64,000 nt of DNA, taken from positions 4,025,501-4,089,500 of the forward strand of contig OX637398.1 in the NCBI GenBank assembly GCA_951799425.1, given 5' to 3'. The translations under genes were made by a program, and so were the position numbers. This document shows, piece by piece, positions 16,147 through 56,768 of the stretch. Within the stretch, counting starts at the first letter, position 1; each line of letters begins with the position of its first letter. Source of the stretch: Ilex aquifolium (taxonomy: Eukaryota; Streptophyta; Magnoliopsida; Aquifoliales; Aquifoliaceae). Under the pieces are notes generated by a model. The model ran no database searches and had not been told where the DNA came from. It saw nothing but the letters and a program-made list of their open reading frames with translations.

Positions 16147-16380
16147 TTCTTAAAATTATCAGTCTACTGTCTACCAAACTCATAGGATGAAGCCAAACAT
16201 CTTGCAATGGTATCTGGTAGGTTTACAGATTTAAGATTCCGCAGTCAAGCTCAACTAACGCAGTCAGTCTACACTCTGTTTCTGTGCAAATCCTCTTCAC
16301 TTGCTCTTTTGTATATGTAACCTTCCACCAAAAACACATACTATACAGATTACTCTCTCTCTCTCTCTCTCTGGCTCAGG
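16147..16380 (+). promoter_or_regulatory. KS-A promoter and leader
   Basis: A TATA-like element GTATATGTAA lies at 16311-16320, about 60 bp before the start codon, followed by CCTTCCACCAAAAACACATAC and a CT-repeat leader. The B promoter reads TATATATAA at this place and has a CACGTG where A has CACTTG. Confidence 0.55.
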
Positions 16381-17057
16381 ATGTCTTTGGCAAGCAGAAG
16401 CAATCTTATACTTCTCTCAGAACATAAGAAGATTTGGGACAGAAATCCATTAGGTGAGGTGGTGTACTTATAAAATCCATTTTAGTTTCTCCATGTAGCA
16501 TATTTCAAATGTACGTTCTGGTTCTTTTGCTCTTGCTTTTGAGCAAAGAATTTCTTTGTGCCATTTTTAAACTTGTCCCTTTAATTTGTTTTCTCAATCA
16601 GATTCACGTCTTCCTCGACCAGTCGTCGTACGAGCACAAAAAAACGCTGCTAAAAATGTTGCTTCTGTAAGCTAACCATCCATATTTTCCAATTATAAAG
16701 AAGTGAAATCATTGAGAAGATAGACATTAGCATTCTAATTTTTATACAATTTGGAATTGTCTGACAGAGTGAACGAGGGCAAATTGCAAGAATCAGTAAG
16801 ATGTTTGACAAGGCTGAGCTATCGATTTCTTCTTATGACACTGCGTGGGTGGCTATGGTGCCGTCTAGGGACTGTCCTCAAAGCCCGTGTTTTCCTGAAT
16901 GCTTGGATTGGGTTTTGCAAAATCAGCACCCAGATGGGTCATGGTGCCTCCTCCCAAACCATCCATTACTAATTAAAGACTCCCTTTCTTCAACATTGGC
17001 ATGTATAGTTGCCCTCCAAAAGTGGAAAGTCGGAGAATTACTGGTAAAACGAGGTAT

Positions 17058-17114
<57 letters not shown>

Positions 17115-20100
17115 TCAACGAAAACTCTCATTTTCCGTCTCATCAATAGGCCTCGACTTCATTGGGTTAAATAGTTGGTCTGCAAATGAGAAGAATCAGT
17201 ATTCTCCAATGGGGTTTAATGTGATATTTCCTGGCATGATTAAGTGTGCTAAGGATTTGGAACTAAATCTTCCTCTAGACCCAACTTTTGTGGACACAAT
17301 GCATCACAAGCAAGATTTGGAAATCAATGCAAACAGAGGCCGTCTAGATTATTTTGCTGAAGGATTTGGCGAATCATATAACTGGAAGAACGTCATGAAA
17401 CACCAAAGAAGTAATGGGTCGCTCTTTAATTCACCAGCCACAACTGCAGCTGGTTTGATTCACCTTCATGATCATAAAAGCTTCGTGTACTTACAGAAGA
17501 TTTTGGAAGTATACAAAAATGCAGGTAAAAAACATTCCTAATTCAATTGTTTTTCATTATTTGACAGGATAATTCCTATTTCCTATGCTCCATAATCCAT
17601 TCTAATGGCCACCCTTTTCTCCTTTCCTTCAGTTCCTACAATTTATCCACTCGATATATACAGTAGGCTCTGCATGGTTGATCGTTTTGTGAGATTGGGC
17701 ATAGATCGATATTTCAAAAATGAGATAGAAAGCGTTCTCCATGAAACATACAGGTATTTTCAGGAGTATGTTACAACTATATCTAGTATAAATCATGCTG
17801 TTTAGACTTATCGTTAGTTGGTGAAAGGTGCTGGATACAGAGGAGTGAAGATATACTTCTAGACATCACTACTTGTGCCATGGCATTTCGCCTGCTACGA
17901 ATGAATGGATACGAGATTTCCTCAGGTATGTTCTACAAGTTTTAATAGACAACATCATACGTGGATGGGGATGGTGAATCTAATAGATAGAAGGTGCAGA
18001 TTCATTGGCAGAATTCGATAATCTAGTACACTTCTTCAATTGTGTAAGCGCAAAATGCACAGATACGAACACAATTCTCGAGTTATACAAGGCTTCACAG
18101 ATCAAGATATCCCAAGAAGAACCCATTCTTGACAAAATAGGGGTCTGGACAAGCTCTTTTTTGAAGAACCAAGTATGGAGTCAGACAATTGAAGACCCAA
18201 GACTACACAAGGAGGTAATAGGTCTGGAAACCACATATACATTTGCTCTTGCAGCAACCTGAGGTTGTATTAGCAATCTAGGAACTCATGACATGAAACT
18301 CAACCCCATTTATTGGGTGAGGAACCTATAAGATAAAAATAAAATATGTAACCCATGACTAATTAGATACTACTGGATCTTGATGTTTCCTATCAACCCT
18401 CTAATAAACATATTTACAGTGTATTAGGACACTCAGTTTGTTACTTATTCAATGTGAGATTCTCACATGTGATTTTCGAAACAGGTGGAGTATGCTTTGA
18501 AGCACCCCCATGGTTATCTCGACCGACTTGATAAGAGGAGAACCATTGAGCAATATGACATAGACAATATTCAACTTCTTAAAACATCCTGTAGGTGAAA
18601 CATATGCTTTCATTCTAAAGATGTGTATTTCTTCTTTTTTGGTTAAAAGCTCATATTCGAGATACATTTTTCCTTTTTTCCAGACTGCAGTGGCTCCACA
18701 TTTTATAACAGAGACTTGTGGTCATTTTCACTGCAAGATTTCAACATTTGCCAAGCCATACAGCGCGAAGAACTTAGAGAACTTGAGAGGTATATATCTG
18801 TCCAACTAAAATTTTCTTAGCTGAAGGAAGGCAACATATATACATTAACAATATGATTGCAATTTGATACATGCAGATGGGGGGAAGTTACTGGATTGGG
18901 TGGTCTCAAGTTTGCTAGGCAAAGGATATCATCCTGCTATTTCTGCATCGCGGCCACTCTTTTCTCCCCCGAATTATCTGATGCTCGCTCCTGTTGGGCC
19001 AAGAATGCCTCTCTTGCCACGTTTGTGGATGATTTTTTTGATGTAGGAGCCACCAGAGAAGAAATGCTCAACCTTATTGAATTGGTTCAAAGGTATGATT
19101 CCTCTGTCTAACGACAATTTTAAACATCATTTTAACTTCTTTGGATGCTATGTCCATTGAATGGAAACAAGAATTACGACCATATGCAATGATAATAGGT
19201 GGGATGGACTCTCAACTGCTGTTTACTGCTCTGAAAATGTTAAGATCCTATATTCTGCACTTCATGACACCATAAATGAGCTTGCAGCCAAGGCTTTGAT
19301 ACAGCAAGGACGATGCGTCAAACATCACCTAATTGAAGTAGTAAGGGATTTAAACACTTGATATCCCTTCTTTGATCCACATATTGATTGATGGGATTCT
19401 AACTTGGCAGATAATAATATGCAGTGGCTTGATTTTCTCAAATGTATGATGCAAGAGGACGAGTGGGTGAGAAGCAAGTCAGCACCGACGCTGGAAGAAT
19501 ATTTGCCTAATGGCCGCATATCAATAGCCTTAGGACCTACAGTTCTAACAACACAATATTTTCTTGGATCAGCATTATCAGAGGAAATAGTAAGAAGTGC
19601 AGAATATGGTAGTCTGTTCCTCCATATGGGCTGTACCGCACGACTTTTCAATGATCTTCAAACAAGCAAGGTAAAGTTGTTTATTTCGGGCTCTATGTTA
19701 TTGGATAGAAAATGTGATTATGCAAAGCAAATAATGCCTACTAGGAGTGCTAGCAGCACTATGACTAAAAGTGCTCATAGAACGGTATCCATTTCTTTTT
19801 CACAGAGAGAAAGCGAACAAGGGAAACTGAATTATTTGCCGTTGCTGGTACTGCACAGTCGTGGAGAAATTACAGAAGATGAGGCCATGGAAACAGTGAG
19901 GGGAATCATTGAAAGTCACAGGAGACAGCTTCTATCGATGGTGGTCCAAACAAAAGGGAGCAAGGTTCCAAAGCCCTGCAAGGATCTATTTTGGGAGACA
20001 ACCCAGGTACTTCGCTATTTTTACATGAGCAGCGACGACTACACCTCTACAAGCAAAACAATTGGCGATATTAAAGCGGTCATTCATGATCAACTCAGTC

Positions 20101-20120
20101 TCGCTCCATGTCTAAGCTGA
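16381..20120 (+). CDS. ent-Kaurene synthase-like class I diterpene synthase, copy A (intact; Thr at product switch)
   Basis: Thirteen exons: 16381-16453, 16602-16666, 16768-17053, 17150-17524, 17633-17753, 17828-17925, 18000-18214, 18485-18590, 18684-18789, 18877-19092, 19199-19340, 19425-19670 and 19806-20120. They total 2364 nt, 787 aa, the usual KS length (TPS-e family). KS converts ent-copalyl diphosphate to ent-kaurene in plastids, for gibberellins or specialised diterpenoids. Seen: an N-terminal Ser/Arg/Lys-rich, transit-peptide-like stretch; [13 protein letters not shown]; a class II centre degenerate to DITT (319-322) in place of DXDD; class I DDFFD at 533-537; NSE/DTE motif N677-D678-T681-E685. 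Odd: residue 640 is Thr (LGPTVL), where kaurene-forming enzymes carry Ile. The product is therefore predicted to be pimaradiene-type (inference). Intron 3 holds a long CT repeat (17057-17110). Confidence 0.93.
17057..17110 (+). repeat. CT microsatellite in KS-A intron 3
   Basis: About 27 CT units directly after the GTATGTT donor. The same site in KS-B (42179-42196) has only about nine units, so this repeat expanded or contracted after duplication. Confidence 0.95.
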
Positions 20121-21131
20121 TAAAAAGACCAAGTAGAAAAGAAACAATGAGATTGATTGGAATAATGGTATGGTGAAAACAAGCATTTGAAGCCTTTACC
20201 AGATTAAATTCATGAACCGATTGTTGGGTATCAGGCTATGTACTAGTTTATGATCATGAATATGTGTTGACCAGCAAACTGAAGATCATGAATATATGCT
20301 ATGTCTCTACATTTGGTTTTTTCATCGCCATGTACAATCGTTGCATTTTGCAAGCCTTAACTTGGTGCTCTTGCAAGCCTAAAGATGGAAGGTGCAACAA
20401 CAGCCTAGACGTGTAAATAGCTCCGGCAATTCTTGACACCATCCAAGAAACCAACGAAATGGATATTAGACACATTAAATAAATGGGTTGTCACGAATTC
20501 ACACTTATACAAAATACTAATCTGATGCAATATGAATTCAATTGTATAAGATTAAAATATCAGCATACTTTAAGAATACTAGGGCTCAATGTTGACGAGA
20601 AAATGCAACCCTAAACTGCTTAAACAATATTTAAGAATTAAAAAGTTGAAAATGATTTTTAACATGTATCGTAACTTAATTTATTGCCATTAGGAATGGT
20701 AGTGGATCGGAGAATAACAAGTATTCATCTAAATCAGTCTTATTTAAATCGAGGGTGGACCATACGTATTGAACGATAGACGTATACGGGGATACCCATA
20801 TAAACATGTGCAGGAATAGAAGCGGAGATGAATTTTGAGTGTAAAAATTAAAATATTTAACATTTTATTTTTGATTGGAGTATTTTTTATTTAAGTATAA
20901 CATTTTAAATTTGAGTATAATTTACTAACGCACATGCACATTGACGATAGAGATCTAAGTATTACATGTGTACAAATATTAGAGGATTTATATATAATAT
21001 TTTAAATGTTAAAATATCTAAGTGATTAAATCACAAATCTGAAGGAATTTTGGTGTAATTCTCCAAAAAAAAAAAAAGGCAAAACCCTAACCCTAAATTC
21101 GCAAAAATGTGAGACTTTGAGCTCCGAAACG
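20121..21131. other. KS-A 3' flank and promoter of the nucleolar-type gene; half-MITE
   Basis: Holds the KS-A 3' region and then, at about 20830-21065, AT-rich sequence matching the 3' half of the MITE at 29366-30387 (ATAATTTACTAACG, GTGTAATTCTCC). It lies just upstream of the next gene's start, so it may form part of that promoter. An uninterrupted AATATTTTA at 20996-21004 is the empty site for a MITE inserted in unit B. Confidence 0.6.
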
Positions 21132-23196
21132 ATGGCGGGAAGAGAAGAAGATAGTGACTCCGACGCTCCTGACGAATTCACATCCCAACAGGTTTGTCAC
21201 TCTCAACAGTCTGATTAAGAAACGTTTTTAACTACTCTTAATTAGAGTTTATATTTTCATTGCAGGGAATTCAGCAAGACGAAGAGATAAGAAAAGTTCA
21301 AGTAGATAATAAAGCTAGGTATGGAGGTTCTAATTACATCTTGACAAGCATGCATTTGTTCGATCTTCGCAATTATGTGTTTTATTCTGAAATTCTTCTG
21401 AAATTCAATTATTGTTCTTCTATATTTTCTCCTTGGGATGGTGGATTTTTTTTTCTGGTTCTTCCTTTTTTTTTTTTCTCCTGATGTAGTGGCTTGGTGA
21501 ATTTGTGTATGCAATATGATTTTTTTTTGGAAAAAAAATTACCTATGGCCTTGAGGTGGAAATTGCAATTTTAGGGATTGCACTGATGTTGTCTCTTTTG
21601 GCTTATTGTTTGATGCAACAGCAGTTACTTTACTTAAAATATATGCTGATGGAGGTGCACAAACAAGTTTGATTGACAGTTCTCATGGAGAATGAGTTCT
21701 CAAATATGAGAGATTCTATAGCTATTGCTAAATGAGGTTAATTAGGAGTTTGGGAAACTTGCACCACTCATGCATAATGTTTTTGCCTATTTTTGATACT
21801 CAATTTATAATGATCCGAAGATCTATTTTCCTACTTAGTAGAACATTTCTCCTTGGTCGATTATCAGGGAGGAACTAGTTTACTTGCCAACAGTTCTTTC
21901 TTAAAAGGTTGGTTCCCCTTCAAAGAGCAACTATCTACACCCTCTGTGTATGCACCCTCTGTGTATGGTTCTTCCCTTCCTTTGTTCAAAGAAACTCTTA
22001 ACTTGGGTACTACATTGAAATGCCTGTGAATTCCCCTTCCTGTGGGTCATTATAACCGAAGCAGGTTGGCGTCACCTCCTTGGAGAAGATGCCTCGACCA
22101 GAAAATATTTTCCTTTGCTCAAAGTCCCTGAATTACTGCACCTGCAAATTTATACATAGTAAACTTTCCTGTCTTGAACCATTTTACATTTAGTAAAAGA
22201 GAGTCTGTACCTTTTTCATGTGTAGAAACCATTGACAACCTGTTTTTGACCTGTTTAAATTAAGGGAAGTACATTTTACATTGGAATATGAGACAGAAAC
22301 AGTTCTTAGAATGATTGATGCAGAAAATTTGAATCTACTCAGTTGCTTCATGCTTGTTGTGCGCCAGGTCATAAACTGTCACATTTGCCCTCTTGTAGTG
22401 TAATTGAGTTGTGAAGTAAACCGCTTGCTTAATTAAGAATCAACCTCGGTGGCGGTTTAAATTCTTGAAGCCCATTTAAGTAGCACATTGTAGATGCTAT
22501 TCTGTATGGCTTGATTTGGTGCTGGTGGTGTTATATTCCACATGCTCTCTTTAGGATTGTTCGTGAAGGAAAAGAGCGTCGAAGGCAATGGGCTCAAAAG
22601 TTAACACCACGTCCATCACGTGGGGATGTCAGTGTTCAAGATGTGATAAACACTGAAACACACCAGGATTCTCAGGATAACCGGGGAATGCTCCCAGATG
22701 ACATTGTCCAACTTCTTGCAGCTCGTGAAAAGTATGTTATGTTACTCTCTTCTTCCCCCCCCCCCCCCCCCCCCCCCCCCCACACCTGCCCTTTCCTCTC
22801 TTGTTCTGTGTGTGCCTTATAAGATAACAATGTCATCTGCAGGAAAGTTTTCCTGTCAGACTCAGAGGAAGACAAGATTGAGAAAAAGCCTAACTCAAAA
22901 AAGAAAAGACCCAAAACCTCTGGGTGGGTTCTTTTTTTCCTTTGTTTCTTCCACAGCAGATAAATTATTTGTTGGATATGCAAGCTTTTGAACCAAAGTA
23001 ATTTTCTTCTTTTTTTTCGATTGACAGGCTCGAACCTGTTATTTTGAAGGACATACCGCCTGCTCAATGCTTACAGAGCTCATTGGAGTTCTTAAAGAAG
23101 CGGAAGATGCAGGTTTCAAGATCGGTGGCAGTTTTGAAAAACTCTGACCAAGCACTACGCTTCCTTTCTATGTCTGGCTTGTTAAGTAAGAAGTAA
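21132..23196 (+). CDS. Small charged nucleolar-type protein, possibly NOL7/UTP16-like, copy A (intact)
   Basis: Five exons: 21132-21191, 21266-21318, 22555-22731, 22843-22923 and 23028-23196. They total 540 nt, 179 aa, all phases consistent. The protein starts MAGREEDSDSDAPDEF, has a basic central block (REGKERRRQWAQKLTPR), an acidic/phosphosite-like DSEEDK, a lysine-rich nuclear-localisation-type run (KKPNSKKKRPK), and ends LRFLSMSGLLSKK. The C-terminal segment, with SRSVAVLKNSDQALRFL, is reminiscent of the NUC129 domain of NOL7/UTP16 ribosome-biogenesis proteins; that identity is only a suggestion. Intron 2 is long (1.2 kb). Intron 3 contains a 27-C run. It is the only intact copy of this gene in the window. 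Confidence 0.8.
22755..22781 (+). repeat. Poly-C run in intron 3 of the nucleolar-type gene A
   Basis: Twenty-seven consecutive C just inside the intron. The B copy has 13 (53525-53537). Such a run can form an i-motif or G-quadruplex and is prone to slippage. Confidence 0.95.
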
Positions 23197-23506
23197 TGTA
23201 GAACAAGTGAGCAAGGACGTAGCTTTATGTTGTTCTGTTATAATGATGTAACTGCTGATTTATTGCCCCGCACTATGAGTGATATGATGAATACTTAGAA
23301 TTGCAGATGTGAGACATTACCATGACTTGTCATATTAGCAACTAAATATTACAGCGACCAATTGTGAGAAACAAATGCCTGATATGATTTTATCTAGAAG
23401 AATAATATTGTTCCAAAAAACATACTAATGTATGTACTCTTATGAACTTGATAGAAGTGAAGGAGAAAGAGGAAAACTACTACACTTTGGAGAGCTGATC
23501 GATAAG

Positions 23507-25754
23507 TCAACAAGCTGCTTGCTTCTCTGGCAGTAGGCAGCAATTTGCATCTTCAGCTGTTCGAAATATGATGACTTTCAGCAAATTTTCATCACCATTT
23601 ATGAGTTCGAAGACACAAACGTCACCCACAGCCAGAAAATTGTCTTGTACAAATTTATTCCAGCCGCTTTGGATTTTCGCATCGCGTGGATAGATAGTGT
23701 ACTTAGCAGAGCATGTTCTCCCATCTGGAACTTGAAGGGTAACAGTTGTATGCTTCTTGGCAAGAAATTTCTGAGCAAAAATCAGTGGCATGTTCTGTAA
23801 AAAAAAATAAAATCATATTGTGGATTAAATTAAATCACACATGCAAAGAAAAATAGAGAAATAAGAGTCTTCCTGTTCTAAAACTGGCCATGCAAGGAAG
23901 AATCAAGAGTAATTTAAGGGGAAAGAAAATGTTTTCCGTATCGAAAGAGGTACGGTGTCGAGATGGATTCTAAAATGTCTAAAATTGGTTGAATCGATCC
24001 CGACACTCCCATTTTGTTGACATACAATGCCTCAAGTTGAAAAGCTCACCAAAGAGAATCCGGCAACGTAATATGGTCCCATGATAACCATAAAGAAAGG
24101 GTTTTTAGATTTGAAAGCTTTAGCTAATTGAAGAGCTCTAACTCTTCCGGTGTCACTTGCCAAACGCTTCATCCAAGTTGGAAATTCCCAGTGCTGACAT
24201 CTCTTAGGTCCATCTGAAAATAAATCCACATTATACACTACATCATCCAAAGTAGTATACCTTAAACATGTTCCAAATATAAAAGTTCAGCAATAGCACT
24301 CGCCATCTATTTTCATTGTTCCACTCTTTGACAACATGAAAAAATCGAAACCTCTGCCCCTCCGCCTCTATCTATGCAAAGGATGGAAGGGCAAAGGCCT
24401 ACAATACCTAACTCAATTTCCTTACCTCCAACTTTCTGCATGGAACAGTGTAAATATTGGTCCAATTCTGATTTCACTGGCTTCACCCTGTTATCTTGAG
24501 GACCTGTGGATCGATTGTGATTGGAACTATTCTCTAATTCATTGGTTTGTTTAGGTCTCCTCCTTGTAGTGAACCGAAGATGTGGCTGTAGTGATTTCTC
24601 TCTTCTTCTCTGGCTTGGTGGAAAATCATCCAAGCTTTTAACTGAATCATCTCTTGTACTTCTTCCATTTTGGGAACCCTGCATCCCCTTTCTGCATGAG
24701 TCGCTTCAGTTTTCATCTTCTTACAAGGCCTAGAATATGCTACTGGAGATTTCTCCCTCGTAGTCTGGCATATTGGAAATTCTTCGAGGATTTCAACAGA
24801 ATCATCCATCTCAACATCATTGGTTTTGGCTTGAAATTTCCCAGTGAAGCCTGTCCATGGCAAGGGTGATTGCAAGCTTTGGGGAAATGGATAGGGAATA
24901 GGAAATCTCACAGCCTCATTAGAACCAAACTGATAAAGTTCGTCATCACTCTTATGTTTTGAAGATTTCTCAAGCTTTTTGCCCATCGTAGGATTAGTGA
25001 TTTTATTGATGATTTTTCCGCTACGAAGAGTGGAAATGTTCAACTTGTGTTGCAGCTTTTGTGGTGGCTGTGGCATTTGACGGATATTCTATTTCCGAAG
25101 CACGTATACCAAATATAAGAACATGGAAATGGGAATTCCCGTCATATCTGAATACTAAGAAGTACCCAAAGCCAATTGAGTAATACTCCTTAAATTTCTG
25201 CCACTCTAGCCAAGAGTCGCCATTGCATTTTCCCAATACTACTGGCCATACTGCACCATTTGGAACGTTGAGGAACACACGATTTGGCAGAATATTTCCA
25301 TATTGTCTGATAAACTCTTCCGGGATCCTCTGTAAAAAAAAAAAAAACTTACATAAAAACCTCAAAGGATTTATAGAACGTTCAGGACAAGTGGAAAAAT
25401 AATATCTTCACTACATATGGCATATCAATACAGAACTTTCGTCGAACACATTATATGAAATAGCCCTAGTACTAAAAAACACTAAATTACAGGGACCAAA
25501 GGCAGAATCTATATGTCATTTTCGACAAAATTATCAACAACAAATCGTCTAAATTGAATGTTAGGCCTGAACGAAACTGGGCTGGGCAGGGTTTGGGGGA
25601 GGATGTGTTGTCTACGTGCTTGGATAAATACCAGTTTGCTTGCGAGAATGAGAGATTTAACACTCACCAGTCTGTGATTTCGAGAAGAGCGCGAAAAGAT
25701 AATGCTGAAAAAGTGCGGTGAATTCGCCGGAAAATTTGTCCTGTTGGGCTCCAT
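23507..25754 (-). pseudogene. REM-type B3 transcription factor, copy A (frameshifted)
   Basis: Four exons on the minus strand: 25754-25668, 25329-24426, 24213-24050 and 23794-23507. The product would have two B3 DNA-binding domains: the first from NSPHFFSIIF through RIPEEFIRQYGNILPNRVFL to FLVFRYDGNSHFHVLIF; the second from NPFFMVIMGPYYV across intron 3 to MPLIFAQKFLAKKH and VGDVCVFELI. Relative to copy B an 11-bp deletion after 25039 (between two ATGT repeats) and a 1-bp deletion near 24660 put the linker out of frame. Translation from the ATG would stop at 25021, giving about 131 aa with only the first B3 domain. It could still make a one-domain protein, but the two-domain gene is broken. 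Confidence 0.85.
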
Positions 25755-26206
25755 GTTGCTTCGCCGCCGCCGCTGGGAACTATCAGCTAGCTATGACTTC
25801 TCTATGGAGCAATGCCGGTTGTGTAATCATGATCAGTTTTGCCATTAAATAGCTTGACTCTTCAGTTGATACTGAGAGGTGGTTAGGCTTTATGGTAATT
25901 CAATGCTTCCTTCCTTCCTTGTACGCCACATGGCATGAGAAAAGTAGAAGAAAATGGTATTTAAACTTGGTGTAAATCCCATTTTGCCCCGGAAGGACAC
26001 AAATTTTCAGTTTCCTCCCTAAATGATTAATTTTTTTACATTAATCTTTTAAAGAAATAAAAATATTGTAACATGGTCCACCATCTTATTTCTATTTGAT
26101 CGTCCGCCTGCTTTGTTACGTGGACAAAAATATTGGCTGAGATTCGGAATTTGGCAAGATAGAGGAGGAGACTAACGTAATTACAAGTTTACAACATACA
26201 TTTATT
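25755..26206. other. B3-A 5' flank, no gene seen
   Basis: Promoter side of B3-A, collinear with 56486-57660 of unit B minus the B-only MITE. Nothing further recognised. Confidence 0.4.
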
Positions 26207-26214
26207 GACCCACG

Positions 26215-27297
26215 CAGTGGCGGATTTTGGGACTTATGTGTAATTTTAAAAATTTCAAGAATTTCTTAAACTTGTCCCCACTGAAATTTTCTTAAAATAT
26301 AGGGCATATTAATATAATTTTCAGCTGCCCCCACTGAAAATTTAAAAAATTTTGGGACATAAATATAATTTTAAAAATTTCAAGACTTTCTTAAACTTAC
26401 CCCACTGAAACTTTTTTAAAATATAGGGTATATTAATATAATTTTTAACCTAACTTTTGGCAGCTAACTTTTGGGCAGCTCTCCTTTTCACGCTTACTTT
26501 TTTTATTTTTCCCGTAAGCCTTCGCTTCGTCTTCTTCGAGAGAGAATACCAGTCCAGTCCAGCGTCCAACCCTCTTCTCTCTTTTATTTAGTTTCTTTGT
26601 TAGTTCCTTACTTCCTTTTGGTGTATTCATCAACAAATCAGTCTATTGAATTCAATCATTGTGCAAATCAAATTTGAAGAAACTCTGGAAGATTATGTTG
26701 AAGCTAAGGAGAGGTAATCCATTAACCAAATTTTTTAATAGTAGTATTAGCACTAATCTAAAATCAGATTTTTTATATTATAAAATTAGTTTAGTTCTTG
26801 TAGAATTGATGGTTGTTTGGTGTATTATTTATGGACTTATGTATGTTTTCTTTGTTTCGTCTTAGATCACCACTTAACTATTTTGAATTTTTGTTGAAGC
26901 CATGTTCAGATTGGCTATCTAAGATTCTTGGTTAGTGTTATTTTTCTTCCCTATGATTAAATTGTTTTAATTGATTTCTTGAAATTCTAGTTTGGATTAT
27001 ATTTTGGATTTATGGATTATATTTTAATTATGTGTAGTCCATTACCTCATTTGTTACGAACTTAATGACAAACTCTTAAACTTGAATCTAATTAGATAAA
27101 AAAAAAAAATTTAATCAACTATGGATAAGTTTCTTATAAGAAAATCAACATTGGAACAACCGTCTCCTACTCAAGAATGTTACAATTATACTTTGAAATT
27201 TAAGAATTTAGGTTGATGAAAACAATGTTATAATTATACTTTGAAATTTAAGAATTTAGGTTGCCCCCACTGAAACAAAATCCTGGCTCCGCTTCTA
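26215..27297 (+). mobile_element. hAT deletion derivative with perfect 8-bp target duplication
   Basis: Ends CAGTGGCGGATTTTGGG (left) and CCTGGCTCCGCTTCTA (right), an imperfect TIR, flanked on both sides by GACCCACG (26207-26214 and 27298-27305). Eight-bp duplications are diagnostic of hAT. Near the right end an ATG at 27121 opens MDKFLIRKSTLEQPSPTQE, like the N-terminus of ZMYM1/DUF4371-type transposases, then stops; so this is an internally deleted copy needing transposase from elsewhere. A 48-bp direct duplication (27178 onward and 27226 onward) precedes the right end. Unit B keeps the empty site (ACCCACG near 57661), so insertion followed the segmental duplication. Confidence 0.9.
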
Positions 27298-27305
27298 GAC
27301 CCACG

Positions 27306-27894
27306 ACCCGACATAAATTTGTTACTAGTCTCCACCATAATATATATATTGGCTTTAATGCTGATGTTATCATCTAATAAAAAATTTATACGTGGACAAA
27401 GTGAGCTTCATTTCTTCACATAAGATAATTATTTTCATATGTAGACAAGATAGTTACTATATTAAGTATAATCCTTTTATTTACAAGTTAATTTATTATT
27501 AAATGATAATATCACATGATAATAATGAAATAATATCACTGTCGCATTCAATATTTTCTCTTGAGCCACAGTCCGAGCGTTGAGCCAAAAAAGTTGATAG
27601 GTGTTAAATTTTTTCATTAAAAAGTTGATGTGTTAATTTTTTTATTTAAATTGTTACCTTTGGTATTTCACTTCCATTTCCAATAAAAAGTTGATACGTG
27701 TTAAATTTTTTATTTTTTATTTTTATAATTAATAATTATAAATGTAACAAAGATCTACATTTATCTAACTATTTTTAGTGTGATACTTTACCACAATCTA
27801 ATCTATCTTAAACTATGATGAAAAGTATATCAAAAAATATTATAGTGTCTTACAAAATGATCTAACACATTTTTTATTATATATTAGGGTTAAT
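27306..27894. other. AT-rich intergenic DNA shared by both units
   Basis: Collinear with about 57670-58249 in unit B. No gene or RNA recognised. Confidence 0.4.
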
Positions 27895-28164
27895 AGTACT
27901 TTTGGACCTTTAGTTTCTAAAATATATATTTTTTATCAGTTTAATCTTCATTATATCAATTATATCAATTTGATCTCTAAAGTATTCAATTCGTGTCATT
28001 TTTATCTTTACATAGACGGATCGTTAAGTTTTTGACGGAATGATCACGTATTGGGCATGTAATACTGTCTAAAAAAATTACAAGTGCTAATTTCAGTCAA
28101 AAAAACTTGATGGATTGTCTGATTAAGGACTAAAGTGACATGAATTGAATACTTTAGGGACTAA

Positions 28165-29199
28165 GAGCATCTCCAACCCACTAGCTAAATCCATATTTTT
28201 TAGCTATTTTGGCGAGGTTTGCTCCAAAAATCTGCTTGAACCGACTAGCTATCTTTTTCACCTAAACCTAGGAGGTCTTTGTGGGCTGTCCCACATCGAT
28301 AGCCTTGTGTGTGTGTGGTGTGTTTCTATATCTTCACCTGGCCTACCTCTTTTAAGAGGTAGTGTTAGGTTGTTGATTAAAAAATCAAAAAAAAACTGTC
28401 TGGGCTGTGGGCTGTCCCACATCGATAGCCTTGTGTGTGTGTGGTGTGTTTCTATATCTTCACCTGGCCTACCTCTTTTAAGAGGTAGTGTTAGGTTGTT
28501 GATTAAAAAAAATCAAAAAAAAAAAACCTAGGAGGTCTTTCATGCTCGACAAATCTGGAAAGGGAGCAGAAACTCGTTATCCTTCTTGTAGCCTTTTTCT
28601 TCTTCATATTTTCCAACCACTGCTGCTAGGTATCATCTCCCCTTCCAGACACCCACCCCTATGTGTTGTTGCCGAACCTCTCCCCTTCAGCACCCCAAGT
28701 TGTGAATCTGAAACCCACCTCCCCCTATTCCGAAACCCTCCTCTGCCTCCCCCTCCCTATGTTGAAACCCCACATCCCCTCATTCCTATTGTTATTGATT
28801 TTTGGTTAAATAGGTGTTTAAATTGCTATTGTTTTTTAGTTAAATTTATATAATGTATGGTTGAATTGTTATGATCAATTGATTTTTATTTTTGAAGTGG
28901 ATAGGTGTTAAATTGCTATTAGGTTGTATTATTTGAAGTTTGATTAGAATTATCGTTATGATATGATTTTGATTGGGTTGATGATAATATATGCTTTGAG
29001 TTGAATTACATGAATAATGTATGTTTTTGGTTGAATTCTAGGCATTTTTAAATTATATTATTGAAAATTAGTTAAAGTAGTCAGTTCAAATAAAGAACGT
29101 AGTTAGAGTGAACTTGTAAAAATGACTAGCCAAAATAGAAAATGCAATATTTAAAAATATTTTGGCTAACCATTTTAGAGAGTTGGGTTGAAGTTGCTC
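28165..29199. repeat. PIF/Harbinger-like element (GAGCATCTCCAAC ends), unit A
   Basis: Left end GAGCATCTCCAACCCA, right end TGGGTTGAAGTTGCTC, both flanked by TAA, the 3-bp duplication of PIF/Harbinger elements. The interior has a C-rich stretch (28620-28790) present in both units that could be captured gene sequence, but no protein family was recognised in it. Confidence 0.65.
28281..28526 (+). repeat. Dimeric SINE-like retroposon carrying an snRNA-type USE motif
   Basis: Two near-identical 126-bp units in tandem, ending in A-rich tails and flanked by a 14-bp direct repeat CCTAGGAGGTCTTT (28267-28280 and 28527-28540). Long target duplication plus poly-A tail indicates LINE-type retroposition. 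Each unit contains GTCCCACATCG, matching the upstream sequence element of plant snRNA promoters, then TATATC about 28 nt later, then a short palindrome (ACCTCTTTTAAGAGGT). Unit B has the empty site near 58620. The source RNA is not recognised. Confidence 0.7.
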
Positions 29200-29365
29200 T
29201 AAATTGACAAATTTAATACAATAAGGACTAAACTGATAAAAAAATATATATTTTAAGGATTAAAAGTGATATTAATCCTATCTACTATAATAATTAATTT
29301 AAGAGAGAAAATTTATAAGTCTTTTTTTTGTCAAAATATAAAATTTTTATTATTTTATAAAATAG

Positions 29366-30387
29366 AGAATTACACCCAGTTCTCCTAAGGTTTGTCACTT
29401 AATCACTCAGACGCCATGACATTTGAAATATTACACACAATCCTCTGAAATTTGTATATACGTAACACTTATACCCCTGTCATTTTGTTACTATATCCGT
29501 TAATAAATTGTATTCAGACCTTCTGAAATTTATAGACGTATAATACTTAGACGGCTCAAGTTTAAAATGTTATTATACTTAGACTGCAAAAACTCTAATC
29601 AAAGATAGAATATCAAATATTTTAAATTTTACAACCAAGATTCATATTCTATTGTATCATTTTTTGAAATAAAAATAAAAATAAAAATCTAATTTTTTCT
29701 TAAAAAATCGTAATTAGTATACAATTATACTTACTTATTAGAATAAAATTAAAAAAATCAAACAAGGGGTCTAAGTCATTCATAATAGAAAATGAATTTT
29801 ACAACAAAAATTTATGTTATATTATATCATTTATTAAAATAAAATCAAAAATAAAAATTAAATTTTTTTTCTTAAAAAATCATAATTAATATACAATTAT
29901 ACTATCTATTAGAATAAAATAAAAAAATAAAAAAGGGTCAAACTGTAATGGACACAATATCTTCTAACTTTAATTGGGGTAATTTGGTAGTTTAATTTGA
30001 TTGTTTAAAAATGACCAAATTAAATTTCAATAAATAGTATAATTGTATACTAATTATAATTTTTTTTTTAAAATTAGATTTTTATTTTTGATTTCACTTC
30101 AATAAATGTCATAATAAAACATAAATTTTGGTTGTAAAATTTAAAATATTTGATTAGAGTGCTTTTGGTCTAAATATAACATTTTAAAATTGAAGAGTCT
30201 AAGTGTTACATGTTTACAAATTTCAAGAGATTTGAGTATAATTTACTAACGGATACACTAAAAGACATTGACGACAGTGGTTTAAGTGTTACGTGCGTAC
30301 AAATTTTAGGAGGTTTGTATGTAATATTTTAAATATTAAAGGTCTTAGTGATTAAGTGACAAACCTCAGAAGGTCTGAGTGTAATTC
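29366..30387. repeat. MITE with long inverted ends, unit A only
   Basis: The ends GAATTACACCCAGTTCTCC and GGTCTGAGTGTAATTC are inverted over at least 45 bp (CACTTAATCACT / AGTGATTAAGTG). The interior is AT-rich and itself partly palindromic. The corresponding place in unit B (about 60030) lacks it. Its 3' half is related to sequence upstream of the nucleolar-type gene in both units. Confidence 0.7.
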
Positions 30388-30517
30388 TTTCTTTGAAAAA
30401 TATATTAGTATCTTCCAATTAATTTTTTCGGTACTCCTAGCCGATTAGTTTAAACTTTAAAACGTCTTCCTACGGTTAAAACCCTAAACCCCGTCACTCC
30501 CACCCGGAGACGCCACC

Positions 30518-30963
30518 ATGCGCCATATTCTAACCACCCTTCGCCACCACCAGTACTGGCGGTGTCTCTGCTATCCCTCAATCCTCTTTCCCTCCCTCCG
30601 TTTGGTCCACTATAAGCCCCAAAAACCCAACCACCACCATCCCCACCCAAATCCCCAAAACCACCCCAAAAACCAGTAACCTTCACACTCCACAACGAGT
30701 CTTGGGAAGATCCATACAGTTGGATGTCCCAACTTAACGATAAAGTAGCCATGCGTCACATGGATGTCTACATGGAGCAAGAGGAGAAGTACACCGAGGC
30801 CGTCTTGTCCGACACCGAACGCCTCCAATCGAAGCTCCAATCTGAGATGGCCTCGGACCTCTCCACACCTCCCCTCCGTTGGGGCCCATGGTACACCTCT
30901 CTCCAATTCGAATCGATAATTTGTGTTGCGGTTCAGAATTCAAGAGTATGATGAATTTTGCTT
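30518..30963 (+). pseudogene. Prolyl oligopeptidase-family gene, 5' stub (copy A)
   Basis: Matches exon 1 of the gene at 60142 (MRHILTTLRH..., MSQLNDKVAMRHMDVYMEQEEKY). A one-base deletion in a C/A run shifts the frame, so translation from the ATG ends at about 30678. It also lacks nine bases of the ASRMAS repeat. Similarity stops at 30963, a little into intron 1, marking the right edge of unit A. No downstream exon is present. Confidence 0.9.
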
Positions 30964-32947: not shown

Positions 32948-33211
<264 letters not shown>

Positions 33212-40384: not shown

Positions 40385-40432
40385 TACCCTTTGTATATAT
40401 AACCTTCCACCAAAAACACATACTATACTGAT

Positions 40433-40506
<74 letters not shown>

Positions 40507-41269: not shown

Positions 41270-41506
41270 TTCTTAAAATTATCAGTCTAGCGTCTACCAA
41301 ACTCATAGGATGAAGCCAAACATATTTGCAATGGTATCTGGTAGGTTTACAGATTTAAGATTCCGCAGTCAAGCAACTAACGCAGTCAGTCTACACTCTG
41401 TTTCTGTGCAAATCCTTTTCACGTGCTCTTTTGTATATATAACCTTCCACCAAAAACACATACTATACAGATTACTCTCTCTCTCTCTCTCTCTCTGTGG
41501 CTCAGG
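41270..41506 (+). promoter_or_regulatory. KS-B promoter with G-box and consensus TATA
   Basis: CACGTG at 41420-41425 (G-box core; CACTTG in copies A and in the 7.5-kb fossil), then GTATATATAACC at about 41433-41444 and a CT-repeat leader. The G-box could bind bHLH or bZIP factors; this is inferred from the motif only. Confidence 0.55.
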
Positions 41507-44500
41507 ATGTCTTTGGCAAGCAGAAGCAGTCTTATACATCTCTCAGAACATAAGAAGATTTGGGACAGAAATCCATTAGGTGAGGTGGTGTACTTATAAA
41601 ATCCATTTTAGTTTCTGCATGTAGCATATTTCAAATGTACGTTCTGGTTCTTTTGCTCTTGCTTCTTTGTGCCATTTTTAAACTTGTCCCTTTAATTTGT
41701 TTTCTCAATCAGATTCACGTCTTCCTCGACCAGTCATCGTACGAGCACAAAAAAACGCTGCTAAAAATGTTGCTTCTGTAAGCTAACCGTCCATATTTTC
41801 CATGTAAACGTATTATAAAGAAGTGAAATCATTGAGAAGATTGACATTAGCATTCTAATTTTTATACAATTTGGAATTGTCTGACAGAGTGAACGAGGGC
41901 AAATTGCAAGAATCAGTAAGATGTTTGACAAGGCTGAGCTATCGATTTCTTCTTATGACACTGCGTGGGTGGCTATGGTGCCGTCTAGGGACTGTCCTCA
42001 AAGCCCGTGTTTTCCTGAATGCTTGGATTGGGTTTTGCAAAATCAGCACCCAGATGGGTCATGGTGCCTCCTTCCAAGCCATCCATTACTAATTAAAGAC
42101 TCCCTTTCTTCAACATTGGCGTGTATAGTTGCCCTCCAAAAGTGGAAAGTCGGAGAATTACTGGTAAAACGAGGTATGTTCTCTCTCTCTCTCTCTTATC
42201 ATAAATCAACGAAAACTCACATTTTCTGTCTCATCAATAGGCCTCGACTTCATTGGGTCAAATAGTAGGTCTGCAAATGACAAGAATCAGTATTCTCCAA
42301 TGGGGTTTAATGTGATATTTCCTGGCATGATTAAGTCTGCTAAGGAATTGGAACTAAATCTTCCTTTAGACTCAACTTTTGTGGACACAATGCATCACAA
42401 GCAAGATTTGGAAATCAAGGCAAACAGAGGCCTTCTAGATTATTTTGCTGAAGGATTTGGCGAATCATATAACTGGAAGAACGCCATGATACACCAAAGA
42501 AGTAATGGGTCGCTCTTTAATTCACCAGCCACAACTGCAGCTGGTTTGATTCACCTTCATGATCATAAAAGCTTCGTGTACTTACAGAAGATTTTGGAAG
42601 TATACAAAAATGCAGGTAAAAAACATTCCTAATTCAATTGTTTTCATTATTTGACAGGATAATTCCTATTTCCTATGCTCCATAATCCATTCTAATGGCC
42701 ACCCTTTTCTCCTTTCCTTCAGTTCCTACAATTTATCCACTCGATATATACAGTAGGCTCTGCGTGGTTGATCGTTTTGTGAGATTGGGCATAGATCGAT
42801 ATTTCAAAAACGAGATAGAAAGCGTTCTCCATGAAACATACAGGTATTTTCAGGAGTTTGTTACAACTATATCTAGTATAAATCATGCTGTTTAGACTTA
42901 TCGTTAGTTGGTGAAAGGTGCTGGATACAGAGGAGTGAAGATATACTTCTAGACATCACTACTTGTGCCATGGCATTTCGCCTGCTACGAATGAATGGAT
43001 ACGAGATTTCCTCAGGTATGGTCTACAAGATTTAATAGACAACATCATACGTGGATGCGGATGGTGAATCTAATAGATAGAAGGTGCAGATTAATTGGCA
43101 GAATTCGATAATCAAGTACACTTCTTCAATTGTGTAAGCGCAAAATGCACAGATATGAACACAATTCTCAAGTTATACAAGGCTTCACAGATCAAGATAT
43201 CCCAAGAAGAACCCATTCTTGACAAAATAGGGGTCTGGACAAGCTCTTTTTTGAAGAACCAAGTATGGAGTCAGACAATTGAAGACCCAAGACTACACAA
43301 GGAGGTAATAGGTCTGGAAACCACATATACATTTGCTCTTGCAGCAACCTGAGGTTGTATTAGCAGTACCTACATCCATGAACCAAAAAACTACATCGAT
43401 GTATTAGCAATCTAGGAACTCATGACATGAAACTCAACCCCCTTTATTTGGTGAGGAACCTATAAGATAAAAATAAAATATGTAACCCATGACTAATTAG
43501 ATACTACTGGATGTTTATGTTTCCTATCAACCCTCTAATAAACATATTTACAGTGTATTAGGACACTCAGTTTGTTACTTATTCAATGTGAGATTCTCAC
43601 ATGTGATTTTCGAACAGGTGGAGTATGCTTTGAAGCACCCCCATGGTTATCTCGACCGACTTGATAAGAGGAGAACCATTGAGCAATATGACATAGACAA
43701 TATTCAACTTCTTAAAACATCCTGTAGGTGAAACATTTGCTTTCATTCTAAAGATGTGTATTTCTTCTTTTTTGGTTAAAAGCTCATATTCGAGATACAT
43801 TTTTCCTTTTTCCCAGACTGCAGTGGCTCCACATTTTATAACCGAGACTTGTGGTCATTTTCACTGCAAGATTTCAACATTTGCCAAGCCATACAGCGCG
43901 AAGAACTTAGAGAACTTGAGAGGTATATATCTGTCCAGCTAAAATTTTCTTAGCTGAAGGAAGGCAACATATATACATTAACAATATGACTGCAATTTGA
44001 TACATGCAGATGGGGGGAAGTTACTGGATTGGGTGGTCTCAAGTTTGCTAGGCAAAGGATATCAGCCTGCTATTTCAGCATCGCGGCCACTCTTTTCTCC
44101 CCCGAATTATCTGATGCTCGCTCCTGTTGGGCCAAGAATGCCTCTCTTGCCACGTTTTTGGATGATTTTTTTGATGTAGGAGCCACCAGAGAAGAAATGC
44201 TCAACCTTATTGAATTGGTTCAAAGGTATGATTCCTCTGTCTAACTACAATTTTAAACATCATTTTAACTTCTTTGGATGCTATGTCCATTGAATGGAAA
44301 CAAGAATTACGACCATATGCAATGATAATAGGTGGGATGGACTCTCAACTGCTGTTTACTGCTCTGAAAATGTTGAGATCCTATATTCTGCACTTCATGA
44401 CACCATAAATGAGCTTGCAGCCAAGGCTTTGATACAGCAAGGACGATGCGTCAAACATCACCTAATTGAAGTAGTAAGGGATTTAAACACTTGATATCCC

Positions 44501-45254
44501 TTCTTTGATCCACATATTGATTGATGGGATTCTAACTTAGGCAGATATTAATGTGCAGTGGCTTGATTTTCTCAAATGTATGATGCAAGAGGACGAGTGG
44601 GTGAGAAGCAAGTCAGCACCGACGCTGGAAGAATATTTGCCCAATGGCCGCATATCAGTAGCCTTAGGACCTATAGTTCTAACAACACAATATTTTCTTG
44701 GATCAGCATTATCAGAGGAAATAGTAAGAAGTGCAGAATATGGTAGTCTGTTCCTCCATATGGGCTGTACCTCACGACTTTTCAATGATCTTCAAACAAG
44801 CAAGGTAAAGTTGTTTATTTCGGGCTCTATGTTATTGGATAGAAAATGTTATTATGCAAAGCAAATAATGCCTACTAGGAGTGCTAGCAGCACTATGACT
44901 AAAAGTGCTCATAGAACGGTATCCATTTCTTTTTCACAGAGAGAAAGCGAACAAGGGAAACTGAATTATTTGCCGTTGCTGGTACTGCACAGTCGTGGAG
45001 AAATTACAGAAGATGAGGCCATGGAAACAGTGAGGGGAATCATTGAAAGTCACAGGAGACAGCTTCTATCGATGGTGGTCCAAACAAAAGGGAGCAAGGT
45101 TCCAAAGCCCTGCAAGGATCTATTTTGGGAGACAACCCAGGTGCTTCGCTATTTTTACATGAGCAGCGACGACTACACCTCTACAAGCAAAACAATTGGC
45201 GATATTAAAGCGGTCATTCATGATCAACTCAGTCTCGCTCCATGTCTAAGCTGA
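41507..45254 (+). pseudogene. ent-Kaurene synthase-like diterpene synthase, copy B (premature stop; Ile at product switch)
   Basis: Thirteen exons with the same lengths as copy A: 41507-41579, 41713-41777, 41888-42173, 42241-42615, 42723-42843, 42918-43015, 43090-43304, 43618-43723, 43817-43922, 44010-44225, 44332-44473, 44559-44804 and 44940-45254. Motifs are preserved: DITT, DDFFD, ND..T...E. Residue 640 is Ile (LGPIVL), the kaurene-type state. Codon 341 is TAA (43092-43094) where A has TCA, cutting the protein before the class I domain. An AG at 43100-43101 could serve as an alternative acceptor, removing 12 nt (four residues including the stop) without a frame change. Other differences from A include several exon 7 and exon 10 substitutions. 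It is either a very young pseudogene or a splice-rescued gene. Confidence 0.88.
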
Positions 45255-46947
45255 TAAAAAGACCAAATAGAAAAGAAACAATGAGATTGATCGTGAATAT
45301 ATGCTATCAGGCTATGTACTAGTTTATGATCATGAATATGTGTTGACCAGCAAACTGAAGATCATGAATATATGCTATGTCTCTACATTTGGTTTTTTCA
45401 TCGCCATGTACAATCGTTGCATTTTGCAAGCCTTAACTTGGTGCTCTTGCAAGCCTAAAGATGGAAGGTGCAACAACAGCCTAGACGTGTAAATAGCTCC
45501 GGCAATTCTTGACACCATCCAAGAAACCAACGAAATGGATACTAGACACATCAAATAAATGGGTCATCACGAATTCACACTAATACAAAATACTAATCTA
45601 ATGCGATATGAATTTAATTGTATAAGATTAAAATATCAGGCGTGAATGCAAATTTACCCGATTTATGTTTTCGCAACATGCTAACCACTAGCACATAAAA
45701 ACACAACTTTTTTTAAATTGCTTTTTTTGGGTGAACAACTTTTTCTAGTTTAGCGTTAACAACTCAATTTCTTTTAATTTTTCCAGCATACTTTAAGAAC
45801 ACTAGGGCTCAATGTTGACGAGAAAATGCAGCCCTAAACTGCTTAAACAATATTTAAGAATTAAAAGGTTGAAAATGATTTTTAACATTTATCGTAACTT
45901 AATTTATTGCCATTAGGGATAGTAGTGGACTGGGAAAAAATAGGTATTCATCTAAATCCGTTCTATTTGAATCGAGGGTGGACCATACGTATTGGACGGT
46001 AGACGTATACGAGATACCCATATAAACTTGTGCAGGCATAGAAGCGGGGATGAATTTTGATTGTAAAATTTAAAATATTTGATATTTTATCTTTGATTGA
46101 AATTTTTTTGTTTAAGTATAACATTTTAAATTTGAGTAATCTAAGTATTATACGCTTATAAACTTTATGGAGTTTGAATATAATTTACTAACGGATATAC
46201 ACATTGATGGTAGAAATCTAAGTATTAGGTGTGTACAAACATTAGAGGATTTATATATAATATTTTAGGGTTAATTGCACTAGAGGTCCCCAAAGTATGA
46301 GGTCTGTCTCATTTTGGTCCTCAATATTTCAATTGTATCATTTTAGTCCCTGAAGTATTAAATATGTTTCTATATGGTCCTTCAAGCAGACAACATCCAG
46401 ATTGCTAACGATTTTTTATCATAAACTTGTCACGTAATATCTAAATATGAACAAAAAATAATTTTGATAGCTCTTAAACAAAATTTGGATAGCTATTGAC
46501 CAAAAAATGTGTAATATTGGTAGCTTTGACCAAAATTTGGATAGCTCATGATCAAAACTGTGTAATTTAGGTAGGTATTTAACCAAAATTTGAGTAAAAA
46601 TTTGGTCAAGAGTAATCCAAATTATTTGTTTGTCCATATTTAAGTATCATTTGACAAGTTTATGATAAAAAATCGTTAGCAATCTGGACACTGTCTTCTT
46701 GGGGTACCATATAGAAACATATTCAATACTTTAGGGATTAAAATGATGCAATTGAAACATTGGAGACCAAAATTAGACAAATTCAATACTTTAGGGACCT
46801 CTAGTGCAATTAACCCAATATTTTAAATGTTAAAGGATCTAAGTGATTAGTTGATAAACTTCAGTAAATTTGGTGCAATTCTCCCAAAAAAAAGGCAAAA
46901 CCTTAACCCTAAATCTGCAAAAAGGTGAGACTTTGAGCTCCGAAACG
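45255..46947. other. KS-B 3' flank and promoter of nucleolar-type gene B
   Basis: Collinear with 20121-21131, with two extra insertions: about 144 bp at 45640-45783 and the MITE at 46268-46816. No gene seen. Confidence 0.55.
46268..46816. repeat. Foldback MITE with 9-bp target duplication (Mutator-like)
   Basis: Ends GGGTTAATTGCACTAGAGGTCCC and its complement, with inverted similarity extending about 150 bp inward. Flanked by AATATTTTA on both sides (46259-46267 and 46817-46825). The same 9 bp occurs once, uninterrupted, at 20996-21004 in unit A. Nine-bp duplications are typical of Mutator-like elements. It lies about 130 bp upstream of a start codon. Confidence 0.85.
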
Positions 46948-47993
46948 ATGGCGGGAAGAGAAGAAGATAGTAACTCCGATGCTCCTGACGAATTCACATC
47001 CCAACAGGTTTGTCACTCGCAACTGTCTAATTAAGAAACGTTTTTAACTACTCTTAATTAGAGTTTATATTTTCATTTCAGGGAATTCAACAAGACGAAG
47101 AGATAAGAAAAGTTCAAGTAGATAATAAAGCTAGGTTTGGAGGTTCTAATTACATCTTTACAAGCATGCATTTGTTCGATCTTCGCAATTATGTGATTTA
47201 TTCTGAAATTCTTCTGAAAGTTCATTTCTTCTGAAATTCAATTATTGTTCTTCTATATTTTCTCCTTGGCATGGTGGATTTTTTTTCCTGGTTCTTCCTT
47301 TTTTTTTCTCCTGATGCAGTGGCTTGGTGAATTTGTGTATGCAATATGTTTTTTTTTTTTTTTTGGAAAAAATTTACCCATGGCCTTGAGGTGGGAATTG
47401 CAATTTTAGGGATTGCACTGATGTTGTCTCTTTTGGCTTATTGTTTGATGCAACAGCAGTTACTTTACTTAAAATATATGCTGATGGGGGTGCACAAACA
47501 AGTTTGATTGATAGTTCTCATGGAGAATGAGTTCTCAAATATGAGAGATTCTATAGCTATTGCTAAATGAGGTTAATTAGGAGTTTGGGAAACTTGCACC
47601 ACTCATGCATAATGTTTTTGCGTATTTTTGATACTCAATTTATAATGATCGGAAGATCTATTTTCCTACTTAGTAGAACATTTCTCCTTGGTCGATTATC
47701 TGGGAGGAACTGCTTTACTTGCCAACAGTTCTTTCTTACAAGGTTGGTTTCCCTTCAAAGAGCAACTATCTACACCCTCTGTGTATGCACCCTCTGTGTA
47801 TGGTTCTTCCCTTCCTTTGTTCAAAGAAACTCTTAACTTGGGTACTACATTGAAATGCCTGTGAATTCCCTTCCTGTGGGTCATTATAACCGAAGCAGGT
47901 TGGCATCACCTCCTTGGAGAAGATGCCTCGACCAGAAAATATTTTCCTTTGCTCAAAGCCCCTGAATTACTGCACCTGCAAATTTATACATAG

Positions 47994-48191
47994 TGTTGGA
48001 TATCATGTTTATTTCTCAGTCCGTAATTATAGGATCACGTCCGTTACGATCCTATAATTACGTGATTTGGTTTGATCATTATATATTTGTATTTATTGCT
48101 TTTTATTTCCTTCCTTTCTTGTAATATACTCTTGTGAATATAAATACATTGCTTGGCTCCTCCATTGAGTAAGCCAATACAATCTCCTTTT
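47994..48191 (+). repeat. Copia 5' LTR
   Basis: 198 bp, starts TGTTGGATATC and ends CTCCTTTT, an unusual end for an LTR (TG..CA expected). It contains a strong hairpin (TAATTATAGGATC and its complement separated by about 11 bp). Confidence 0.93.
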
Positions 48192-48203
48192 TGGTATCAG
48201 AGC
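48192..48203 (+). other. Copia primer-binding site
   Basis: TGGTATCAGAGC immediately after the 5' LTR, complementary to the initiator methionine tRNA 3' end. Confidence 0.9.
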
Positions 48204-52730: not shown

Positions 52731-52928
52731 TGTTGGATATCATGTTTATTTCTCAGTCCGTAATTATAGGATCACGTCCGTTACGATCCTATAATTACGT
52801 GATTTGGTTTGACCATTATATATTTGTATTTATTGCTTTTTATTTCCTTCCTTTCTTGTAATATACTCTTGTGAATATAAATACATTGCCTGGCTCCTCC
52901 ATTGAGTAAGCCAATACAATCTCCTTTT
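52731..52928 (+). repeat. Copia 3' LTR
   Basis: 198 bp, preceded by the purine tract GAGGGGGAG (52722-52730). Two differences from the 5' LTR. Ends are confirmed by the CATAG duplication. Confidence 0.93.
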
Positions 52929-53524
52929 CATAGTAAACTTTCCTGTCTCGAACCATTTTACATTTAGTAAAAGAGAGTCTGTACTTTTTTCATGTGTAGA
53001 AACCATTGACAACCTGTTTTTGACCTGTTTAAATTAAGGGAAGTACATTTTACATTGGAATATGAGACAGAAACAGTTCTTAGAATGATTGATGCAGAAA
53101 ATGTAAATCTACTCAGTTGCTTCATGCTTGTTGTAGGCCGGGTCATAAACTGTCACATTTGCCCTCTTGTAATCGAGTTGTGAAGTAAACCGCTTGCTTA
53201 ATTAAGAATCAACCTCGGTGGTGGTTTAAATTCTTTGAAGCCCATTTAAGTAGCACATTGTAGATGCTATTCTGTATGGCTTGATTTGGTGCTGGTGGTG
53301 TTATATTCCACATGCTCTCTTTAGGATTGTTCGTGAAGGAAAAGAGCGTCGAAGGCAATGGGCTCAAAAGTTAACACCACGTCCATCACGTGGGGATGTC
53401 AGTGTTCAAGATGCGATAAACACTGAAACACACCAGGATTCTCAGGATAACCGGGGAATGCTCCCAGATGACATTGTCCAACTTCTTGCAGCTCGTGAAA
53501 AGTATTTTATGTTACTCTCTTCTT

Positions 53525-53537
53525 CCCCCCCCCCCCC
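53525..53537 (+). repeat. Poly-C run in intron 3 of nucleolar-type gene B
   Basis: Thirteen C, against 27 in the A copy at the same place. Confidence 0.9.
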
Positions 53538-56707: not shown

Positions 56708-56732
56708 GGGCTTGTTTGGTACGGGGGTTTGG

Positions 56733-56768
<36 letters not shown>

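Follow-up and report, generated by a model that had tools for sequence, protein, structure and literature searches.

RESULTS AND DISCUSSION

Two kaurene-synthase-like genes in a segmental duplication

The window, by which we mean the whole stretch of 64,000 nucleotides that was analyzed, carries two kaurene-synthase-like (KSL) genes, copies A and B, each lying in one unit of a segmental duplication (Table 1). The two units (about 15-19 kb) match in several blocks at 71-99% identity, and a comparison of their edges finds the flanks unlike each other on both sides. Besides the KSL, both units contain a B3-domain gene, a short gene that was placed by eye near 21.1-22.8 kb, and part of a prolyl-oligopeptidase-like gene, namely its first-exon region. 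The unit 2 copy of this last gene has a match to PF02897 and, judged by eye, extends beyond 60600, and its later exons have no match in 30964-41269, the interval after unit 1. Immediately to the left of unit 2 lies a probable transposon, which matches 6527-7240 at 82% in the opposite orientation. Unit 2 also holds an LTR retrotransposon at 47992-52928, with 200-nt LTRs that differ at 2 of 200 positions; by eye its open reading frames (ORFs) are of Copia type, and the 6 bases flanking it on each side do not form a matching target-site duplication. Between the two KSL copies lie long AT-rich, degenerate tandem-repeat arrays (34199-35690 and 36160-39470; repeat units of about 20, 31, 41, and 51 nt), which occur in both orientations, with inverted arms of up to 1081 nt that are 95% complementary.

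Table 1. Features of the duplicated locus, with positions counted from the first base of the window
Feature	Position	Strand	Remarks
Gene with weak TPR match	543-5678	-	Pfam, sub-threshold
Retrotransposon gag/protease ORF	9555-11270	-	Pfam, PF13650; upstream of copy A
Transposon-like ORF	13797-14180	-	Pfam, DUF4371 (PF14291); upstream of copy A
Unit 1, carries copy A	16147..30963	+	BLAST limits; ends just past first-exon region of prolyl-oligopeptidase-like gene
Copy A, kaurene-synthase-like gene	16381..20120	+	Intact frame, 13 exons, 787 aa; PF01397 and PF03936
Copy A exons 1-7	16381-16453, 16602-16666, 16768-17053, 17150-17524, 17633-17753, 17828-17925, 18000-18214	+	
Copy A exons 8-13	18485-18590, 18684-18789, 18877-19092, 19199-19340, 19425-19670, 19806-20120	+	
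Copy A DDFFD (DDxxD)	19028..19042	+	Residues 533-537
Copy A exon 12	19425..19670	+	Met609, A636-L-G-P639-T640, start of NSE motif NDLQTSK
Copy A codon 640	19539..19541	+	ACA = Thr; middle residue of PIx (ALGPTV), phase 0
B3-domain gene	23510-23812	-	Pfam, PF02362 match
Unit 2, carries copy B	41270..60600	+	BLAST limits; LTR retrotransposon inserted at 47992-52928
Copy B	41507..45254	+	13-exon structure as in A; frame cut short by a stop at codon 341; a pseudogene in this assembly
First 12 nt of copy B exon 7	43090..43101	+	ATTAATTGGCAG; contains stop codon, ends in second AG
Copy B codon 640	44673..44675	+	ATA = Ile; ALGPIV, kaurene-synthase-type PIx

Of the 73 ORFs with a length of at least 90 aa, 10 were searched against Pfam, as was the copy A protein. 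The leftmost gene of Table 1 resembles, by eye, a NASP/SIM3-type histone chaperone. A six-frame scan of the window, which intron-split genes can escape, returned neither the heme-binding nor the I-helix pattern of cytochromes P450, and the class II motif DxDD was found only at 30261 (+) and 34162 (-), by eye not in a terpene synthase. A diterpenoid gene cluster was therefore rejected: with no P450 signature and no credible copalyl diphosphate synthase (CPS) signature in the window, the neighborhood gives no sign of a pathway.

Gene models and predicted enzyme class

The gene models of both copies were reconstructed from the sequence by splice sites, and all 12 introns are GT-AG in each. The reading frame of copy A is open through 787 codons, with all splice sites and both metal-binding motifs retained, in agreement with the preliminary description, which had called this copy intact. 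Those motifs, DDFFD at residue 533 and NDLQTSKRE (NSE) at residue 677, stand in the frames of both copies; the class II site DxDD was not found in the copy A protein. Spliced, this protein shows the Pfam terpene synthase N-terminal (PF01397) and metal-binding (PF03936) domains. Its best match among solved structures is abietadiene synthase 3s9v (residues 52-764 of 787, E = 5.4e-123), which ranked first of 47 distinct solved-structure sequences with E up to 1e-10 and which we take to be a three-domain (gamma-beta-alpha) enzyme. Among the solved-structure matches listed, none is named kaurene synthase or TPS-e, and according to a review no TPS-e structure was known (PMC11795633). By architecture and motifs, copy A is thus a putative kaurene synthase(-like) enzyme of TPS-e: a monofunctional class I diterpene synthase with three domains, presumably located in the plastid.

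No third KSL copy was found by tblastn of the protein against the window, all matches outside copies A and B having E above 2. A loose motif pattern gave a third match at 62484, with about 1 expected by chance; it lies, by eye, inside an intron of the prolyl-oligopeptidase-like gene, has no tblastn match, and was rejected as a gene copy. Intron 3 of the KSL contains a CT-repeat microsatellite, at about 17060-17109 in copy A and about 42180-42196 in copy B, that is 29 nt longer in copy A.

Copy B has the same exon structure and a single premature stop, codon 341 being TCA in copy A and TAA in copy B, upstream of the catalytic domain. The stop falls within the 12 nt that separate two AG splice acceptors. 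Splicing at the second acceptor would bypass it in frame, at the cost of four codons including the stop, and the frame is otherwise open for 783 codons.

Residue 640 at the published switch position

The preliminary description had placed Thr640 of copy A at the residue that switches the product of kaurene synthases, and three landmarks agree in supporting this placement. The first is the motif context. The key Ile of kaurene synthases is the middle residue of PIx, a motif also described in the longer form AxxPIx (PMC11795633, PMC13098426). In copy A this stretch is A636-L-G-P639-T640-V641; in copy B it is identical except for Ile at 640, so that PIx is present there as PIV, in the stop-truncated frame. 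Judged by Ile in PIx as the mark of kaurene synthases proper, copy A falls outside that group, and its Thr in an otherwise kaurene-synthase-like AxxPIx context is that of the OsKSL5j type.

The second landmark is the alignment to 3s9v, in which the VSIAL alanine of abietadiene synthase falls on A636, in line with reports that the kaurene synthase Ile lies four residues beyond this alanine (PMC11795633, PMC9945934). The same alignment rules out residue 640 as the abietadiene synthase switch itself.

The third is spacing from Met609, the hydroxykaurane-controlling position, which is present in both copies, 31 residues upstream of 640. In PpCPS/KS, the hydroxykaurane-controlling A710 (PMC4625925) and the Ile I741 (PMC5118566) are likewise 31 residues apart, as are M607/T638 and M608/I639 in the Tripterygium KSLs (PMC10813164). 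The PpCPS/KS residue is printed as A610 in PMC13098426 and as A710 in PMC4625925.

Much weaker than these landmarks is residue 694, 54 positions beyond 640, which is Leu in both copies; its mapping assumes no gaps, and Leu is frequent in this stretch. We take a Leu/Val residue described near the switch to be OsKSL5 position 718. Position 718 lies 54 residues downstream of the switch (PMC10813164), and the Leu/Val residue near the switch is described as a Leu conserved in kaurene synthases, where Leu is reported to keep the switch clean (PMC11795633). The change is printed as I718V in PMC10813164 and as Leu/Val in the review PMC11795633; we treat both this and the A610/A710 conflict as misprints. 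The switch is also restated in PMC6779861, and nothing further on the switch residue was found in PMC7497057 and PMC11399519.

Divergence of the two copies

At codon 640, the copies differ by a single C/T transition (LGPTVL in copy A, LGPIVL in copy B), and the gene models place both codons exactly where the preliminary description had reported them. That description had also called the genes otherwise near-identical. This is apt insofar as only 33 of 2364 coding bases differ, and needs qualification in that 24 residues besides 640, as well as the stop, also differ, some of them in the catalytic domain. At the codon level, 26 of 787 codons carry nonsynonymous differences (stop included) and 7 synonymous ones, corresponding to 25 amino acid differences, residue 640 among them, plus the stop. 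Those in the catalytic domain, written from A to B, are S501A, C505S, V532L, K569E, I635V, and A673S. The KSL copies have diverged by 1.4% in their exons and by 1.65% in their introns, and the aligned flanks by 4.9%.

With this level of divergence, copies A and B might be two alleles of one gene that a misassembly has placed next to each other, with a Thr/Ile polymorphism like that of OsKSL5j and OsKSL5i. In our judgement, 1.4% exon divergence is within the allelic range for outcrossing plants, and the AT-rich repeat arrays at 34.2-39.5 kb between the copies are prone to erroneous joins. We nevertheless consider this very doubtful: the window does not contain a single N, the flanks of the two units mismatch at either edge, and only beside unit 2 does the prolyl-oligopeptidase-like gene continue past its first-exon region, as in a true segmental duplication.

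The pairwise dN/dS is 1.01 (dN 0.0141, dS 0.0140; 26:7, with the stop counted as nonsynonymous), and over the whole pair selection is relaxed, with no trace of purifying selection. A ratio near 1 is in part expected if copy B decays; it lends no support to constraint on copy A. The probability of at least 26 nonsynonymous changes among 33 is 2e-5 at an average dN/dS of 0.2, 0.016 at 0.4, and 0.15 at 0.6, the last value, with one copy constrained and the other free, being compatible with the counts. With respect to chance, a single codon named in advance would be among the 26 changed codons of 787 with a probability of 3.3%, and any of 12 product-determining codons (the number 12 is our assumption) would be hit with a probability of 33%, indicating that the difference at residue 640, though real, would not be surprising as an outcome of chance.

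These figures, together with the similar substitution levels in exons and introns, would also fit a copy A that is likewise nonfunctional or unexpressed, in a locus that drifts neutrally, with Thr640 as a chance difference. We regard this as quite improbable, given that copy A keeps its full-length frame, every splice site, and both metal motifs, and that the counts also accommodate an average ratio near 0.6, although ratios of 0.4 and 0.2 fit them poorly.

Direction of the change at codon 640

Conservation of Ile across the family favors Thr as the derived state in copy A. A C-to-T change in the disabled copy B could alternatively have restored Ile. The ancestor would then have been a KSL with Thr640, and copy A would still be a pimarane maker, so this reversed direction is compatible with the explanation we prefer. 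We consider it possible, at somewhat short of an even chance: copy B is disabled, the difference is a transition, and the contig scans found no outgroup, but Ile is reported in all known plant kaurene synthases (including in PMC11795633), so that a reversed polarity needs two changes at the site. In addition, transitions with C/G in copy A and T/A in copy B (7 exonic, 1 intronic) are fewer than those in the reverse direction (11 and 5), and copy B therefore shows no C-to-T excess. As for the outgroup, no relative was found in a scan of genome contigs with exon 12 or of viral contigs with the whole protein, and of five sequence motifs looked for in print, one was found, in a single paper.

Predicted product of copy A

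The literature agrees with the preliminary description that Ile-to-Thr at the switch gives mainly ent-pimaradiene (PMC5118566, PMC11795633). The hydroxyl was proposed to stabilize the pimarenyl cation, and in a later view to deprotonate it (PMC11795633, PMC9945934). On the strength of these published mutants, we infer that copy A would stop mainly at ent-pimara-8(14),15-diene, provided that it accepts ent-copalyl diphosphate (ent-CPP), a reading to which we give a probability of roughly 0.6 and in which ent-CPP as the substrate is assumed. The metal sites of copy A, DDxxD and NSE, would ionize a copalyl diphosphate, which is most likely ent-CPP, and closure of the third ring would give the pimarenyl-8 cation. 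Since Thr640 occupies the position of the kaurene synthase Ile, its hydroxyl may stabilize or deprotonate this cation, and the cascade would end at an ent-pimara-8(14),15-diene-type tricycle, not at a tetracyclic kaurene-type product. Copy B, the counterpart of copy A in the other duplicated unit, carries the Ile form and is disabled by its stop codon.

The effect of a single-residue swap can be incomplete owing to epistasis (PMC11795633). Alternatively, the KSL lineage of A and B may have diverged earlier, with a product that depends on other residues or on a different CPP stereoisomer and to which Thr640 is only a contributor; an abietane, sandaracopimarane, or hydroxylated product would be examples. 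The 24 other amino acid differences (S501A, C505S, V532L, and I635V among those in the catalytic domain) leave room for this, as do the product variety, substrate promiscuity, and epistasis of KSLs described in reviews (including PMC11795633, PMC9945934) and the loss of PIx in angiosperm enzymes making mainly labdanes and abietanes (PMC10813164). We hold it to be rather unlikely, as A636, P639, V641, and Met609 are kaurene-synthase-like in both copies, so that the switch is the sole one of these known determinants to be altered.

The preferred reading, in which Thr640 shortens the cascade of copy A, concerns one of the best-understood single-residue controls of a terpene cascade. The switch determines whether the product has three rings or four, and the intact copy holds the three-ring version, as in some rice enzymes. 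The preliminary description had presented copy A as a natural example of the switch; this stands insofar as an intact gene carries Thr at the switch, with the reservations that the copies also differ elsewhere and that rice (OsKSL5j, OsKSL4) and, apparently, Tripterygium had already provided natural Thr carriers. Among the literature matches listed (titles and beginnings of abstracts), there is no earlier published account of this gene pair, which is a new natural instance of the known Ile/Thr difference. Reviews trace natural Thr/Ile variation at the switch to rice (PMC11795633, PMC9945934). A natural Thr carrier with an Ile sister 25 kb away would independently test whether evolution uses this one residue to divert kaurene-type enzymes into specialized metabolism, and such a natural test would gain in value with a plant from outside the grasses.

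Read jointly, the observations might describe a locus that changed its output from the kaurene type to the pimarane type inside a single young segmental duplication, the copy with the switch residue being kept and the Ile copy silenced, with copy B perhaps still yielding some enzyme through its in-frame acceptors and one locus giving both products; we put this forward as a speculation with little chance of being right in full.

Comparison with known systems

The closest parallel is in rice, where OsKSL5j is an ent-pimara-8(14),15-diene synthase and OsKSL5i and OsKSL6 make ent-isokaurene (PMC11795633, PMC9945934), with the same Ile/Thr difference at the same residue between near-identical KSLs as in copies A and B. 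OsKSL5 and OsKSL6 are tandem duplicates, with products that are the same or different depending on the cultivar (PMC11795633, PMC9945934). The rice genes have measured products and belong to a diterpenoid cluster that includes P450s (PMC9945934), whereas copies A and B are known from sequence only, the Ile copy is disabled, and the window contains no P450 or credible CPS signature. OsKSL4, also from rice, naturally has Thr at the switch, as copy A does, and its Thr-to-Ile change lengthens the cascade; it acts on syn-CPP, unlike the ent-CPP assumed here (PMC11795633). Outside the grasses, TwKSL1v2 of Tripterygium wilfordii is apparently a natural Thr precedent: TwKSL1v2, TwKSL3, and TwKSL2 are listed with M607 and T638(A), M608 and I639, and A608 and I639, respectively, at the same two positions as copies A and B and with the same spacing of 31 residues (PMC10813164).

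In poplar, PtTPS19 and PtTPS20 are, like copies A and B, a near-identical diterpene synthase pair, and a single residue sets their products (PMC4625925). That residue, Met/Thr607, is one that we equate with Met609, the same in both copies here, and its effect is on hydroxylation and not a shortened cascade. Finally, the Ala-to-Ser change in Abies grandis abietadiene synthase introduces a hydroxyl-bearing side chain into the G1/G2 helix break and likewise shortens the cascade to a pimarane (PMC11795633); its switch site lies four residues upstream of that considered here, and the equivalent A636 is unchanged in both copies.
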